From Lachnospiraceae bacterium (GTDB lineage Bacteria > Bacillota_A > Clostridia > Lachnospirales > Lachnospiraceae), in contig JAEEJD010000214.1 in the NCBI GenBank assembly GCA_016281675.1, positions 1 through 6,566 of the forward strand: a stretch of 6,566 nt of DNA, given 5' to 3'. The translations under genes were made by a program, and so were the position numbers. This document shows, in pieces, positions 1-6,566 of the stretch. Positions within the stretch are counted from its first letter, which is position 1. Each line of letters opens with the position of its first letter. The notes beneath the pieces were generated by a model. It worked only from the letters and a program-made list of their open reading frames with translations, had not been told where the DNA came from and made no database searches.

Positions 1-609
1 AGCAGTTGCGGTCTGTTCGAACAGGCGGTGTATATTCTTGTCCTTTTCATCTCTTCGGAACAGACTGATCCAGAACGTGATAAGTGTATACACGATCCCG
101 CTGACGATCAAAAGGCCCGCGATCGAATCGAAATAGTTCTGCCCCCTCGAATACTCCGTAACAAACTGCGGATACTTATATCCGACTATCCAGCATATCG
201 TGATGATAAGCGCATTGAGGATGAGCATGACCACTCTCATCCTGCCCTCAAGGATCAACCCTATGTATATCGTTCCGAGAAGGAGCCATATCGGCGCACC
301 GCCCGGTGCTCCGCCGTTCGTGAAGAACATGGCCGGGAAGAACAGCACAACAACCACTATCGACAGAACGATCTTGGCCTGATCTATCTTATTCTTACGG
401 AACACATAATAAACATATACAGAAAAAACAACCGCCCCGATCAATGTGGATACTGTTGCGGATACCGGCTCTTTCATCACCATTCCGAACGGTACCGCCG
501 CATAAAGGGCGATCAGAACAAGCAAAGAAAATACGACGAATGATCTGTCCTGCAGCCTGACGGACGGATTGAAAATATATGCATTGATTCGTTTGAAAAG
601 AGACTTCAT
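1..609 (-). CDS. Multi-pass membrane sensor protein, C-terminal part outside the window (probable HD- or GGDEF-type signalling enzyme)
   Basis: An open frame runs from ATG at 609 to the window edge (203 codons, no stop), so the gene is cut off. The ATG is preceded by AGAGGAAG at 613-620. The protein has about six hydrophobic helices (roughly residues 23-42, 51-70, 78-95, 104-120, 124-143 and 162-183), with a glycine-rich FFTNGGAPGGAPIW motif between helices 3 and 4, then a charged linker RRDEKDKNIHRLFEQTATA. Such six-helix sensors with a GG-x-x-G-x-PIW loop are, from memory, N-terminal modules of clostridial GGDEF, HD-GYP or histidine-kinase proteins. The linker resembles the helix that precedes an HD phosphohydrolase domain (FEQTA-x-ALxNAIDAKDxYTxGHS), so HD or HD-GYP is my first guess, but no catalytic residue is visible. 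It is transcribed divergently from the SOS polymerase, probably from the extended -10 at 643-651. Confidence 0.8.
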   Translation of the reverse strand, partial: MKSLFKRINAYIFNPSVRLQDRSFVVFSLLVLIALYAAVPFGMVMKEPVSATVSTLIGAVVFSVYVYYVFRKNKIDQAKIVLSIVVVVLFFPAMFFTNGGAPGGAPIWLLLGTIYIGLILEGRMRVVMLILNALIITICWIVGYKYPQFVTEYSRGQNYFDSIAGLLIVSGIVYTLITFWISLFRRDEKDKNIHRLFEQTATA

Positions 610-2629: not shown

Positions 2630-3049
2630 TTACGGAGCTTTTTTCAGCATTTCATCCACTTCATCGGCTGTGTATTCGTAAGCACCAAGCTCTTTCCTGA
2701 GATTCTTCGCCTTTTCTCTGTTTAAAGATGCCTTCCCGGAATCCCCTTTTTCATCATAGACCCTGCTCATAAAAGCAGCATGCGCATACTCCCCGACCCG
2801 GTAAAGATCTTCATAGCCGGCTGTCGGAGTAAAGCTCTGCATCCTGCGCGAATAATAGCTCCCCATGATCTCGCCGTAAGCTCTGTGTTCAAGTTCGTAT
2901 TCAAACACTTGCGCATACGTCTTTGCCGGATCTTCCGTCTCCCGGTTCGCATATTGGATCGAAAAGATCAGATCGATGAGACTGACGGCAACGGCGATCG
3001 ATGCTGCAACAAGCAGTATATTCAGGATCACTTTAAGAATTTTATTCAT
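2630..3049 (-). CDS. Small single-pass membrane protein, second copy of the small partner (cassette 2)
   Basis: A 139-aa protein of unknown function and last gene of the five-gene operon. It has a short positive N-terminus (MNKILK), one hydrophobic helix at about 6-30, and a 105-residue helical, TPR-like C-terminal part predicted outside the membrane. It is a paralogue of the 4152-4568 product: LExxxYG (53-59), GEYA (86-89) and a following basic helix occur in the same order and spacing. The start ATG overlaps the end of the preceding zinc-ribbon gene by 8 nt, with GAGGT 8 nt upstream. Conserved pairing with a long zinc-ribbon protein in both cassettes suggests that the two form a membrane complex (inference). 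Its stop is 3 nt from the convergent YolD-like stop, with no visible terminator between. Confidence 0.85.
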   Translation of the reverse strand: MNKILKVILNILLVAASIAVAVSLIDLIFSIQYANRETEDPAKTYAQVFEYELEHRAYGEIMGSYYSRRMQSFTPTAGYEDLYRVGEYAHAAFMSRVYDEKGDSGKASLNREKAKNLRKELGAYEYTADEVDEMLKKAP

Positions 3050-3794
3050 GTCTTAATACCTCACTAAGCTTCACTGCCTTCTGTGCACGGCTCATATTCA
3101 AAAAATCCTGCAATCCCTGCTCATCCATTGAAAAATAGGTACGCATTGCAGCCCGGAGTTGATCGTCCATATCCAGGATGTATGCCAGATACTTCTCGTC
3201 ATTTTCCGATTCCTTCTGAACTTCCAGGACTTCACAATAGTCATCCACATACATGCAGAAATTCCGAATGTCCGTATCAAGGCCGTCAAAATACTCCGGA
3301 TCATCCGATCGCAGTATCATTTCCTCCATCAGCTCGATGCACTCATAATAGTCTTTTGCGACATAGCTCACTTTGCGGAAGCGATCAAACTCTTTCGGCG
3401 GAATATTCATCAGTTCATGCGCGTACAGGAAGCTCACATACTCCACATACTCTCCGCGTTCAAGGAATCCGTCCGCTTCTTCGGCATAGGAAGCCGCATT
3501 TTTCATCGAATCACGCCTTGTAGCTTCATCCTCATCGGGATCGGCGTAATTTGCGGAAGCGATCATTTTAAAAACGATGACCAGGATCAGAAGTACTACA
3601 AGGATCGCCGCCTTTCTGCCCAGTCCCTCAACTGCTTTGGCAAAGACGGAAACCTCTTTTTCCGTATCTTCGTATTCCTTTTTAAACCCGCGCATGTTCT
3701 CCTCATGCTTTACGGCAAAAGGATTAACCTCGCCGCAGTACGGGCATTTTAATTCCTCGGGCCCGACCTCATGTTTGCATTTTTCGCATATCAT
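3042..3794 (-). CDS. Zinc-ribbon single-pass membrane protein, long form (cassette 2)
   Basis: A 250-aa protein. An N-terminal zinc ribbon has C3, C6, C17 and C20 (CEKC and CPYC), then a charged linker (30-60), a membrane helix at about 62-80, and an acidic helical C-terminal region of about 165 residues. A zinc ribbon in the cytoplasm implies an N-in, C-out arrangement. The layout recalls TcaA/YvbJ-type envelope proteins of Firmicutes, but I see no TcaA-like repeats. It is homologous along its length to the 4561-5301 product: the RxDxM segment after the membrane helix, a GEY/GDY turn near 114, and the closing DM-x-x-x-x-x-AA/II-x-x-Y-x-x-MD segment at 208-224. ATG 3794 overlaps the stop of the previous gene by 4 nt and has AGGAGG at 3805-3810. 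Function unknown. Confidence 0.88.
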   Translation of the reverse strand: MICEKCKHEVGPEELKCPYCGEVNPFAVKHEENMRGFKKEYEDTEKEVSVFAKAVEGLGRKAAILVVLLILVIVFKMIASANYADPDEDEATRRDSMKNAASYAEEADGFLERGEYVEYVSFLYAHELMNIPPKEFDRFRKVSYVAKDYYECIELMEEMILRSDDPEYFDGLDTDIRNFCMYVDDYCEVLEVQKESENDEKYLAYILDMDDQLRAAMRTYFSMDEQGLQDFLNMSRAQKAVKLSEVLRHE

Positions 3795-4168
3795 TGGTTA
3801 TTATCCTCCTGCTGCGTTGTTATCCCCTGATCCTGCAGGAACTCCTCTTTTTTCCGGTCACTTCGGCTTCGTTCACTTCTTCCCGAAAGCCACAGGAAGC
3901 CGAATAAGAGCATGATTATCACGATGGCCGCCAGAAGAACGGCACGTACCGTAGAGCTCATCCCCTTTTTGATCCGCTTTTCGCTCCGCTCTGTTTCCAT
4001 GTGAAGATCTTCGCGTATATCCTCCAGCTTATTCATGTATTCCTCTTCTTCAACAGGAGCATGGGCCGTCCCGCAAAACGGACAGCGGACAAGCGCCGCA
4101 TCATATTCCGCTCCGCAGCTTCTGCATATCAACTTTTTTTCGGTTATTGTCTCACTTTGGGATCGCAT
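3791..4168 (-). CDS. Short zinc-ribbon single-pass membrane protein
   Basis: A 125-aa protein. The zinc ribbon has C15, C18, C29 and C32 (CRSC, CPFC), followed by a charged linker with KRIKKG, a membrane helix at about 74-95, and only about 30 hydrophilic residues after it. It looks like the long zinc-ribbon paralogues cut off just after the membrane: a related RSD motif follows the helix, then the protein ends. It may be a stripped third copy or a distinct cytoplasmic-side partner. I chose ATG 4168 over the upstream in-frame GTG at 4177 because the only ribosome site, GGAG at 4177-4180, is 8 nt before this ATG and overlaps the GTG. With this start it overlaps the preceding gene by 17 nt; its stop overlaps the next start (ATGA). 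Function unknown. Confidence 0.85.
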   Translation of the reverse strand: MRSQSETITEKKLICRSCGAEYDAALVRCPFCGTAHAPVEEEEYMNKLEDIREDLHMETERSEKRIKKGMSSTVRAVLLAAIVIIMLLFGFLWLSGRSERSRSDRKKEEFLQDQGITTQQEDNNQ

Positions 4169-4568
4169 TTTGGGCACTCCATTCTATCTTGTCAAAAAGA
4201 CTGCCGTAGTCCGGCATCTTGTTTCGTATCTCACCAAGACGCTCCCTGCATGTTTCTAACGTCTGTGTATTTCCGGCCTCTGCAAAGATCTCTTTCAAAA
4301 ACAGCAGATCCGCATATTCTCCGAGCATATAGTAATCCACGTATTCATCCGCAACCTCGGCTCCGCCCCTTATCGGATGGGAAACCGCCGCCGCAACACC
4401 GTAGTTTTCCCGTTCAAGATTTGACCTGATCGTGTCCGGTGCGATCGTGTCCTCTTCCACATAATTAAACTCAAGCTCCTCACCCGCTCGTTTTGCGGTC
4501 ACAACAAATACAAGCGCCAGGATGATGTTAAGAGCGATCGAAATACCGAAAATCGTTTTTTTATTCAT
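4152..4568 (-). CDS. Small single-pass membrane protein, first copy of the small partner (cassette 1)
   Basis: A 138-aa protein with N-terminal MNKK, one hydrophobic helix at about 6-25, and a helical, mostly acidic C-terminal region predicted outside the membrane. It shares LExxNYG (51-57), GEYA (83-86) and a downstream basic helix with the 2630-3049 product, so the two are paralogues despite low overall identity. The ATG lies 8 nt inside the preceding zinc-ribbon gene, and GGAGGGGGTGATC (4573-4585), an unusually long match to the 16S anti-Shine-Dalgarno, precedes it. No enzyme motif or cysteine pair is visible, only one cysteine (C107). Operon position and the same junction in both cassettes argue for a fixed complex with the long zinc-ribbon protein (inference). 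Confidence 0.86.
   Translation of the reverse strand: MNKKTIFGISIALNIILALVFVVTAKRAGEELEFNYVEEDTIAPDTIRSNLERENYGVAAAVSHPIRGGAEVADEYVDYYMLGEYADLLFLKEIFAEAGNTQTLETCRERLGEIRNKMPDYGSLFDKIEWSAQNAIPK
4177..4180 (-). promoter_or_regulatory. Ribosome binding site deciding the start of the short zinc-ribbon gene
   Basis: GGAG on the minus strand, 8 nt before ATG 4168. The alternative GTG at 4177 shares the last G of this site and has no other Shine-Dalgarno, so the ATG is preferred. The site lies inside the 3' end of the preceding gene. Confidence 0.7.
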
Positions 4569-5301
4569 TTACGATCACCCCCTCCAGATATGCCTCCTGT
4601 TCGATATCTGATGAAGCCAGGTATGCTTCCCTTGCCGCATCATCCATTCCCAGATAAACCTTGAGAATGATATCCGCTTTCTTCTTCATGTCACGGATAT
4701 ATTCCCCATACGGATCCGATTCGATCTCCGACTGCTTGTCTTCATATTCTTGATAAAATTCATAGATCGAATATCTGCAGTCCCTGACATCTCCCTCGGG
4801 GTTGTATCTGTCTGCCTCCGGTCCGAACATGACCGACGACTCGATTTCCGAAACAAGATCATTGTAATCATGAGCCATCTCCCACAGCAGATTCAGATCG
4901 TCATAGGGAGCCTCCCATTCCGCAATGTTATGATATTCTTTAAAGGCCGCAAAGCCTGTATAATCCCCGGCCTCCAGATATTTTTTGATCTGCGCCGAGT
5001 ACTCATCGTATTTTTTTACCGACTCTTTTCGCATGGCATCCGAACGGAAACTGTAGGCATTGTCCTTTACGTAATAAGCAATGCCTATGGCGACCAAAAG
5101 CACAACCATCACAACCGCACTGATGGCAAGCGGAATATTCTCGGAAAGAGTCTCCGAGAGTTTTCGCTTTGTTCTTTCGCTTCTGTTCTTATATTCATTC
5201 AGATCGGCCCTGTGTCCGGACGTTTCCGTAACGGGTCTGCCGCAATAGGGGCATTTCTCAACCGTAAGTCCTATCTCGGCGCCGCAACTGGTACACTTCA
5301 T
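4561..5301 (-). CDS. Zinc-ribbon single-pass membrane protein, long form (cassette 1), first gene of the operon
   Basis: A 246-aa protein with a zinc ribbon at C3, C6, C17 and C20 (CTSC, CPYC), a strongly basic juxtamembrane stretch (residues 40-48), a membrane helix at about 56-78, and an acidic helical region of about 165 residues. Basic residues before the helix predict cytoplasmic zinc ribbon and exported C-terminus. It is a paralogue of the 3042-3794 product. The same Cys spacing, helix position and C-terminal order (GDY near 113, DMKKKAD near 204, YLGMDD near 216) are seen. ATG 5301 has AAGGAG at 5313-5318 with an 11-nt gap, longer than usual. It is followed by its small partner with an 8-nt overlap. 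The tRNA-Trp terminator ends only about 30 nt upstream, which leaves little room for a promoter of its own. Function unknown. Confidence 0.88.
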   Translation of the reverse strand: MKCTSCGAEIGLTVEKCPYCGRPVTETSGHRADLNEYKNRSERTKRKLSETLSENIPLAISAVVMVVLLVAIGIAYYVKDNAYSFRSDAMRKESVKKYDEYSAQIKKYLEAGDYTGFAAFKEYHNIAEWEAPYDDLNLLWEMAHDYNDLVSEIESSVMFGPEADRYNPEGDVRDCRYSIYEFYQEYEDKQSEIESDPYGEYIRDMKKKADIILKVYLGMDDAAREAYLASSDIEQEAYLEGVIVNE

Positions 5302-5331
5302 GATCCGATTTTCTCCTTTATCTGTTTATTG

Positions 5332-5364
5332 AATAAAAACCGCCTAACCTTTGAGGTTAAGCGG
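5332..5364 (-). terminator. Rho-independent terminator after tRNA-Trp
   Basis: Read on the minus strand, CCGCTTAACCT (5354-5364) pairs with AGGTTAGGCGG (5340-5350) as an 11-bp stem with one G-T wobble and a CAA loop, followed directly by TTTTTATT. It starts 11 nt after the tRNA 3' end and would end the tRNA transcript; read-through would be needed to reach the downstream zinc-ribbon operon. Confidence 0.88.
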
Positions 5365-5375
5365 CTTTCCTGTAA

Positions 5376-5446
5376 CAGGGGATGAGAGAATCGAACTCCC
5401 ACCAAAGGTTTTGGAGACCCCTATCATACCATTTGACCAATCCCCT
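5376..5446 (-). tRNA. tRNA-Trp (anticodon CCA)
   Basis: A 71-nt cloverleaf can be drawn in full. The acceptor AGGGGAT pairs with ATCCCCT in seven Watson-Crick pairs. The D stem is GTCA/TGAT. The anticodon stem GGGGT/ACCTT (two G-U pairs) closes the loop CTCCAAA with anticodon CCA at 5412-5414. The variable loop is TGGT, and the T stem GGGAG/CTCTC (one G-U) has loop TTCGATT. Discriminator G73 with A1-U72 matches Bacillus tRNA-Trp. The 3' CCA is not encoded (TTA follows), so it must be added by nucleotidyltransferase. It has its own promoter (5492-5521) and terminator (5332-5364). Confidence 0.97.
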
Positions 5447-5466
5447 GAGTTGCCGATAAAAGCGAC

Positions 5467-5533: not shown

Positions 5534-6301
5534 TCAGAATCTCATGATGGACATCGCGTTGTTACGCTCTTCCTGTTCGCGCCTCTTCTGCATCATAATC
5601 TGATACTGATTCAGCGTTTCCTGTTTCTTCATCTCGCTGATCGCCTTTGCCATATCAAGATCCTCAAGTCTTGATCTTGCCGACAACGTATTCTCAGCGG
5701 CATAATCATTATATCTTATCGCAGATTCGAGAGCGTTGGTCTGTGCTCCCATGCTGCTCCTGCCTTCCGAAACCTTCGATATCGCATCGGTGATCTTACT
5801 CAGATCGAAATCCTTTGTAACATCAAATCCCTCAATACCAAGTTCAGATAAGGTTGCATTTACCATCTGTATCTTCTGTCCGGTTCCGTCGGGCTTGGTG
5901 GCGAGATTGATATCCGCCATACTGCCGTCAAGTATCTTAAGCGTATTGAATTCGGTGTTCTTGCCGATGCCTTCTATATCAGACAAAAGCTGATCCACTT
6001 CTTTCTGGATGGCTCCGAGCTCCTCGCCCGTATTGAGTCCGCTGCTTGCCTTAACACCGAGTTCGTATATTCTCTGAAGACTGTCGGTGATCTGTCCGAG
6101 AGCACCGTCGGCAACATTGAGAAGACTGACTCCGTCCTTTGCGTTATCGCTTCCGACCGTAAGACCCGTCTCCTGGCTGTTCATCTTCTCGGCAATGGTA
6201 AGTCCTGCCGCATCGTCGGCAGCGGAATTGATCCTCTTACCGCTTGCGATCTGAGAATACATCATATTGTTTTGAGAAGAAACACCACTTACTCCTGCCA
6301 T
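5534..6301 (-). CDS. Atypical flagellin-family protein
   Basis: A 255-aa flagellin relative. The N-terminal flagellin domain is clear: SQIASGKRINSAADDAAGL (16-34), an NAKDGVSLLNVADGAL core (53-68) and the LQRIYELGVKASSG helix (75-88). The C-terminal flagellin domain shows SSMGAQTNALE (182-192) and NTLSARSRLEDLDMAKAISE (204-223). The variable middle is short. Both D0 ends deviate: the usual MxIN-x-N-x-x-x-L-x-A start is replaced by MAGVSGVSSQNNMMY, and the hydrophobic tail ending in LSLL by a charged end QKRREQEERNNAMSIMRF. This resembles a flagellin subgroup I recall from Lachnospiraceae. It may be a minor filament or hook-filament subunit; exported by the flagellar type III system, so no signal peptide is expected. 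ATG 6301 has AAGGAGG (6309-6315) 7 nt upstream. Confidence 0.9.
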   Translation of the reverse strand: MAGVSGVSSQNNMMYSQIASGKRINSAADDAAGLTIAEKMNSQETGLTVGSDNAKDGVSLLNVADGALGQITDSLQRIYELGVKASSGLNTGEELGAIQKEVDQLLSDIEGIGKNTEFNTLKILDGSMADINLATKPDGTGQKIQMVNATLSELGIEGFDVTKDFDLSKITDAISKVSEGRSSMGAQTNALESAIRYNDYAAENTLSARSRLEDLDMAKAISEMKKQETLNQYQIMMQKRREQEERNNAMSIMRF

Positions 6302-6358: not shown

Positions 6359-6392
6359 ATTATATTCTACCACCGATCGAACGCGATATCAA
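6359..6392 (-). promoter_or_regulatory. Sigma-A promoter of the flagellin gene
   Basis: TTGATA (6387-6392) and TAGAAT (6364-6369) are 17 nt apart on the minus strand; an overlapping perfect TATAAT lies at 6359-6364. The -35 overlaps the stop codon of the histidine kinase. No flagellar sigma-D/28 element (TAAA-N15-GCCGATAA) is visible upstream, unlike most major flagellin genes. Leader about 55 nt. Confidence 0.75.
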
Positions 6393-6566
6393 GCATTTTC
6401 GGCGTTCTTTTCCGCGTTGTCCGTCCTTCTGAGCATGATCCTTATCCTTGTTCCGAGCTCTTCCCTGGATGTGATCTCAAAATGCCCCTCATGCTTGTCG
6501 ACTATCCACTTGGCGATCGAAAGTCCCAGTCCGGTCCCGCCGAAGCTCCTTGCTTCATCCGAACGG
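6389..6566 (-). CDS. Sensor histidine kinase, C-terminal end only
   Basis: The last 58 residues of a protein whose upstream part lies outside the window. The fragment carries the G2 ATP-lid box GGTGLGLSIAKWIVDKH (residues 9-25), then HFEITSREELGTRIRIMLR, the closing beta strands of a HATPase_c domain in HisKA-type sensor kinases, followed by a polar tail NAEKNAENA and TGA at 6389-6391. It would autophosphorylate on a histidine upstream and pass the phosphate to a response regulator, probably encoded further upstream. The stop sits in the -35 box of the flagellin promoter. Family assignment is firm; the signal and partner cannot be told. Confidence 0.93.
   Translation of the reverse strand, partial: RSDEARSFGGTGLGLSIAKWIVDKHEGHFEITSREELGTRIRIMLRRTDNAEKNAENA

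Follow-up and report, generated by a model that had tools for sequence, protein, structure and literature searches.

A Lachnospiraceae operon of zinc-ribbon and small membrane proteins comprises three families, two of them duplicated, and may encode an envelope complex

The window, by which we mean the whole 6,566-nt stretch of DNA analysed, carries on its minus strand (5301-2630) an operon of five genes, A to E, whose products fall into three families that we call X, Y and Z. The operon and its upstream features are as follows, in the direction of reading:

5534-6301, minus strand: flagellin gene, upstream of A and on the same strand
5375-5447, minus strand: tRNA-Trp, upstream of A
About 5333..5369 (coordinates approximate), minus strand: terminator-like hairpin with a U tail, between tRNA-Trp and A
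4561..5301, minus strand: gene A, 246 aa; Y family, first copy; zinc ribbon, long membrane-crossing helix and acidic helical outer domain
4152..4568, minus strand: gene B, 138 aa; Z family, first copy; one transmembrane helix (TM) and helical outer domain
3791..4168, minus strand: gene C, 125 aa from its ATG; most likely a truncated X family member; zinc ribbon, helix and TM
3042..3794, minus strand: gene D, 250 aa; Y family, second copy; paralogue of A
2630..3049, minus strand: gene E, 139 aa; Z family, second copy; paralogue of B

As originally predicted, consecutive genes overlap, by 8 nt (A/B), 17 nt (B/C), 4 nt (C/D) and 8 nt (D/E); with an alternative GTG start of gene C at 4177, which gives a protein of 128 aa, the B/C overlap becomes 26 nt. 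The zinc ribbon predicted for three of the genes is likewise present, as an exact CxxC-x10-CxxC motif at the N-terminus of A, C and D, and genes B and E are without it. Because the identical five genes occur in the identical order in 8 other sequences, the operon is not a chance stack of open reading frames (ORFs). Compared with their orthologues at locus L001, the genes have dN/dS values of 0.137 (A), 0.227 (B), 0.145 (C), 0.151 (D) and 0.187 (E), which are rough since dS is 0.77-1.59; values in this range (0.14-0.23) point to purifying selection on all five and thus to maintained proteins.

The region 5301-5375 upstream of A folds at -23.3 kcal/mol (z -5.46), and the hairpin at 5333..5369 is not among the results of a consensus terminator scan. 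It ends approximately 32 nt before the start codon of A, leaving little space for a separate promoter. Elsewhere in the window, a frame at 6391-6566 (minus strand) resembles, by eye, a sensor histidine kinase at its C-terminal ATPase end (GGTGLGLSIAK). The plus strand at 741-2626 encodes a DNA polymerase of the Y family, with IMS domains, and a YolD-like protein (match at 0.006, below the cut-off); the second gene overlaps the first by 4 nt, and 4 nt separate its end from gene E, which is convergent with it. At 1-609 (minus strand), a gene begins whose product has six predicted TMs and a weak match to MASE11 (0.0015, below the cut-off).

All five products had been predicted to be single-pass membrane proteins with helical, mostly acidic C-terminal parts, a description that fits most of them. 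By hydropathy, A, D, E and the shorter C ORF each have a single TM (the B ORF was uncalled), and the tails of A, B, D and E are acidic (pI 4.35, 4.38, 4.29 and 5.24, respectively). Gene C departs from this description, as it has no outer domain and its tail after the TM consists of 30 residues with a net charge of -1. Helicity, examined in A and B alone, is borne out by their AF2 models: that of A (pLDDT 91.6, pTM 0.69) has one helix at 28-96 followed by eight shorter helices, and that of B (pLDDT 87.3, pTM 0.70) has a TM helix, residues 3-31, which spans the hydrophobic N-terminus, and six shorter helices. Neither model has a significant fold match in Foldseek (bar E <=0.001); TPR proteins recur among the weak matches of B, none of them significant, and were not used. 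The Y and Z profiles find no PDB sequence at E <=0.01.

No enzyme or transporter had been recognised in the operon, and indeed no such match lies above a curated cut-off. The Pfam matches above curated cut-offs are ribbons only, in A (of the five proteins of the window) and in relatives, and the Z proteins give nothing usable at that level. Zn_Ribbon_1 (PF13240; gathering cut-off 25 bits) scores 25.8 bits on A, 14.5 on C and 12.2 on D, despite the exact four-cysteine motif in all three. Below the cut-offs and outside the ribbon, Pfam matches DUF6237 and PBC on C, DUF357 on D and DUF6724 on one Z protein.

Instead of five separate families, BLASTP, profiles and trees reveal three, two of which are duplicated, so that A with B and D with E, already singled out as pairs in the original prediction, are two copies of one Y-Z pair. 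In BLASTP, A and D align end to end (25% over 252 columns), B and E over 123 columns (23%), and C with the N-terminal third of both A and D; since these comparisons used a five-sequence database without composition correction, their E-values are support and not proof, and the argument for paralogy is carried by the profiles and trees. In the Y tree, from which Y rows outside 215-300 aa were omitted and in which 8 of 49 X rows were included, A-type and D-type proteins (11 rows each) form two clades, each supported at 100/99, that are sisters at 99/95 and nested among single-copy Y. Branches of the Z tree set apart, each as one full side, the 11 B-type proteins, the 11 E-type proteins and the 47 single-copy Z proteins (the last at 99/94). 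A single duplication of the Y-Z pair accounts for both patterns, apart from the Y pair of locus L052, which lies outside the A and D clades on long branches.

Gene C belongs with X. All 13 of the 13 C proteins score higher with the X profile, which was built without C rows, than with the Y profile (75-89 versus 28-44 bits; window gene C, 78 versus 37), and C is therefore best read as X minus its outer domain, a domain that it has most likely lost. Truncated X also occurs without duplication (L051, L105 and L110), so the form of C is not simply a consequence of the duplication. The outer domains of X and Y are, judged from a profile comparison (probability 97%, with no unrelated helical family as control), homologous; the same comparison gives 26% for the outer domains of Y and Z, too low to demonstrate homology. 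Two in-frame fusions join parts of these proteins, namely a 291-aa protein at L106, combining a C-type ribbon region (77 bits) with Y from model position 32 (147 bits), and the natural fusion P0242 of the ribbon-TM half of Y with Z; as one sequence each, both could be deletions or assembly artefacts.

A search of genome contigs found five relatives of A, and we ran first a profile of A relatives and then a wider-family profile over 397 Lachnospiraceae genomes. Matches at 1e-8 occur in 61 of the 397 and extend over at least 200 positions in 53; the eight genomes with shorter matches (G031, G161, G171, G652, G676, G694, G699 and G780) were left unfetched. Genes were called with the X, Y, Z and C profiles at 64 places (59 fetched regions, the window and L001-L005), where the orders are X-Y-Z (38, including L110 with an X of only 117 aa), Y-Z-C-Y-Z (9), Y-Y-Z (4), X-Y (4), Y-Z-Y-Z (2), C-Y-Z (2) and, once each, Y-C-Y-Z, X-Y-Y, Y-Y, X-Y-Y-Z and Y-Z. 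In the divergent group, where X and Y score alike, Y-Y-Z is X-Y-Z by position. As all places were picked for a Y-type match, this tally describes the companions of Y and not the frequency of lone X or Z genes, and it leaves aside hits below 20 bits other than Z, ORFs above 360 aa and isolated single members, namely L004 (at the end of its contig), L134 and, in L002, an X-like protein of 185 aa. At L004 (5734-9842), the A-type gene at the contig end follows genes for a DUF3160 protein and a PGA_cap protein.

That the genes travel together, as the original prediction assumed, is evident from the 69 Y genes, out of 76, that are directly followed by a Z profile match; in 66 of these cases the two overlap, and as start codons were assigned mechanically, long overlaps are upper bounds. 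In the window, A-B and D-E repeat this Y-then-Z arrangement, and the X-type gene directly before Y is the truncated C before D. Five of the seven Y genes without a Z match are followed by a 150-190-aa ORF that is Z-like by eye (L124, L125, L128, L131 and L135); of the other two, L052 has C next and L122 is a mislabelled Z. The named strain [Eubacterium] eligens ATCC 27750 carries X, Y and Z as EUBELI_RS12375, RS12370 and RS12365 (187, 212 and 83 bits; annotated twice as 'zinc ribbon domain-containing protein' and once as 'hypothetical protein') on the 626,744-bp plasmid NC_012780.1, and X-Y-Z is also present in a second L. eligens record. Genome G727 has, around L122, a pair of X-Y-Z units in facing orientation with about 1.2 kb between them; in G754, three different contigs each carry a unit (L105, L106 and L107); and at L136 (743-2725), the Y between X and Z is split into ORFs of 109 and 147 aa, either a broken gene or an assembly error. 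We found no description of the X-Y-Z unit in the open-licence literature.

The distribution of Lys and Arg around the TM favours, only moderately, a topology with the N-terminus inside and the C-terminus outside. More of these residues precede the TM than follow it in 57 of the 76 Y proteins, 31 of the 49 X proteins and 47 of the 69 Z proteins, and the bias is reversed in 9, 13 and 12, respectively; among the C proteins, only 8 of 14 show the expected direction.

The surroundings of the unit are mostly unshared. When 631 proteins encoded in the flanks, within six genes on either side, were clustered, no widely shared neighbour emerged, the largest group occurring in at most six loci; by eye, the two largest groups are ABC-like and MATE-like, and one four-locus group is divergent Z itself. 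An ilvN-like group adjoins L049, L050, L099 and L100, and L051 and L105 have both neighbours in common. Genome G116 has two copies of the operon (L045 and L046), separated by about 18 kb, and immediately upstream of each is a giant ORF; these ORFs, of at least 2,561 and 3,080 aa, contain surface-protein repeats, with List_Bact in both, BspA LRR in one and Ig, CBM_X2 and cadherin in the other. Carriage is associated neither with flagellin (PF00669; 26/40 carriers versus 22/40 non-carriers, p 0.49) nor with SpoIVA (PF09547; 26/40 versus 31/40, p 0.32), in a comparison, uncontrolled for phylogeny, of 40 of the 53 carriers with 40 non-carriers drawn from no-match or short-match genomes. A link to flagella or to sporulation was rejected on these chance-like frequencies.

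The usual adjacency of the genes suggests that their proteins work as one membrane complex, and near-constant adjacency combined with few shared neighbours is what would be expected of the subunits of one complex with a general role. We consider a physical X-Y-Z complex probable, and put an envelope role, given such a complex, at about an even chance. Our overall reading, held with slightly better than even confidence, is an obligate X-Y-Z membrane complex in which cytoplasmic zinc ribbons are linked to acidic helical outer domains, the window representing its duplicated form. In such an adaptor, each subunit would cross the membrane by one helix, the ribbons would dock to a partner inside the cell, and the outer acidic helical modules might bind or position envelope components. 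Nothing in the data is specific to the envelope, as flanks are mostly unshared, only 53 of 397 genomes are carriers, and flagellin and SpoIVA are unassociated; neighbours, fold comparisons and phyletic pattern likewise lend no support to any one specific role. A bolder version, which we offer tentatively and hold to be the less probable, is a Lachnospiraceae-specific X-Y-Z complex with a new helical outer fold that in one lineage went from three parts to a pseudo-symmetric five, in which a ribbon-only X, its outer domain ceded to the second Y, is surrounded by two Y-Z arms. The gut and the rumen are rich in Lachnospiraceae, a family whose envelope biology is poorly known. What appeared as five unknown genes resolves into three families with a clear history and defines a compact three-gene unit; the named carrier strain makes this unit testable, and the carriers among the sampled relatives permit natural comparisons.

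Other readings have to be weighed against such a complex. The outer domains could sense a ligand or wall stress and the ribbons signal to a regulator encoded elsewhere, as the ribbon and the large helical domain are joined by a single predicted helix in the A model; in E. eligens, the unit is immediately preceded by a hybrid histidine kinase gene, and within six genes, by eye, kinase-like neighbours occur in four loci and response-regulator-like ones in three (at L005 on both sides). However, these groups concern a small minority of loci, at varying distances and on varying strands, and we regard a signal-transducing sensor as unlikely. Less likely still is an accessory, mobile or conflict-related cassette moving between Lachnospiraceae, to which the patchy carriage (53/397), the differing flanks of most loci, the E. 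eligens plasmid (627 kb), the tRNA-Trp beside the window unit and a serine-recombinase-like ORF (by eye) 2.6 kb upstream of the L001 unit would be suited. Against it, the nine ORFs of the window include no integrase match, no PADLOC match is better than 0.022 (defence), and viral contigs give a single 25-residue ribbon match (phage origin). A tRNA lies directly upstream of the unit in none of the 45 other loci, which speaks against tRNA-linked insertion; any tRNA is found in five of the 45, and in one of these, L115, it lies about 100 bases downstream of the unit. Moreover, the A/D and B/E trees split alike, as shared descent predicts, and the flanks common to L049, L050, L099 and L100 and to L051 and L105 are as would be expected under vertical descent.

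The original prediction had also pointed to TcaA/YvbJ-type proteins, a likeness that holds for the ribbon-TM N-terminus and leaves the rest of the TcaA model unmatched. In A and D, as in TcaA, an N-terminal zinc ribbon is followed by a single TM, a layout matching that reported for TcaA (PMC10328498), and the NCBIfam model (NF053815) weakly matches 11 of 20 Y proteins, with 21.4 bits for A (positions 3-67) and 16.0 bits for D (positions 4-75). The located matches nevertheless comprise only ribbon and TM (positions 1-82 of 463) at 16-31 bits, far below the cut-off of 550 bits over 463 positions, by which A and D are rejected as members. This cut-off is exceeded in 0 of 6 carrier and 0 of 14 control genomes and is narrow, since B. 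subtilis, in the control, matches yet stays below it. The window holds no tcaR- or tcaB-like neighbour, and that its proteins are true TcaA/YvbJ members acting in wall teichoic acid ligation is, in our judgement, highly improbable.

For the X-Y-Z complex that we favour, TcaA and YvbJ are, on our analysis, leads by layout that carry no membership. TcaA is described as a protein that crosses the membrane once, with a zinc finger on the inner side and most of its mass on the outer side, and that affects wall teichoic acid ligation (PMC10328498); the 454-residue S. aureus protein is encoded in tcaRAB, together with an MFS transporter and a regulator of the MarR type (PMC10611510). The ribbon proteins described here share with TcaA the N-terminal zinc ribbon, single TM and bulk predicted outside, but the tail as modelled, of about 170 residues, consists of helices throughout, and the three-gene unit includes a ribbonless partner. 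YvbJ of Bacillus and Enterococcus is likewise a zinc-ribbon membrane protein, and a beta-lactam-selected E. faecalis variant combines a yvbJ frameshift with an ireP change (PMC13377840). The phage family phrog_6586, with no assigned function, matches A at 1-50, C at 13-100 and D at 1-81 (best 1.2e-05, for D), but has 129 positions and no outer domain. According to PMC11237479, YdjG and PSP-associated ZnR proteins are also ribbon-bearing membrane proteins of multi-gene envelope units, and B. subtilis YdjG is set apart from the proteins of the X-Y-Z unit by its two ribbons and its YpeB-related NTF2-like domain.
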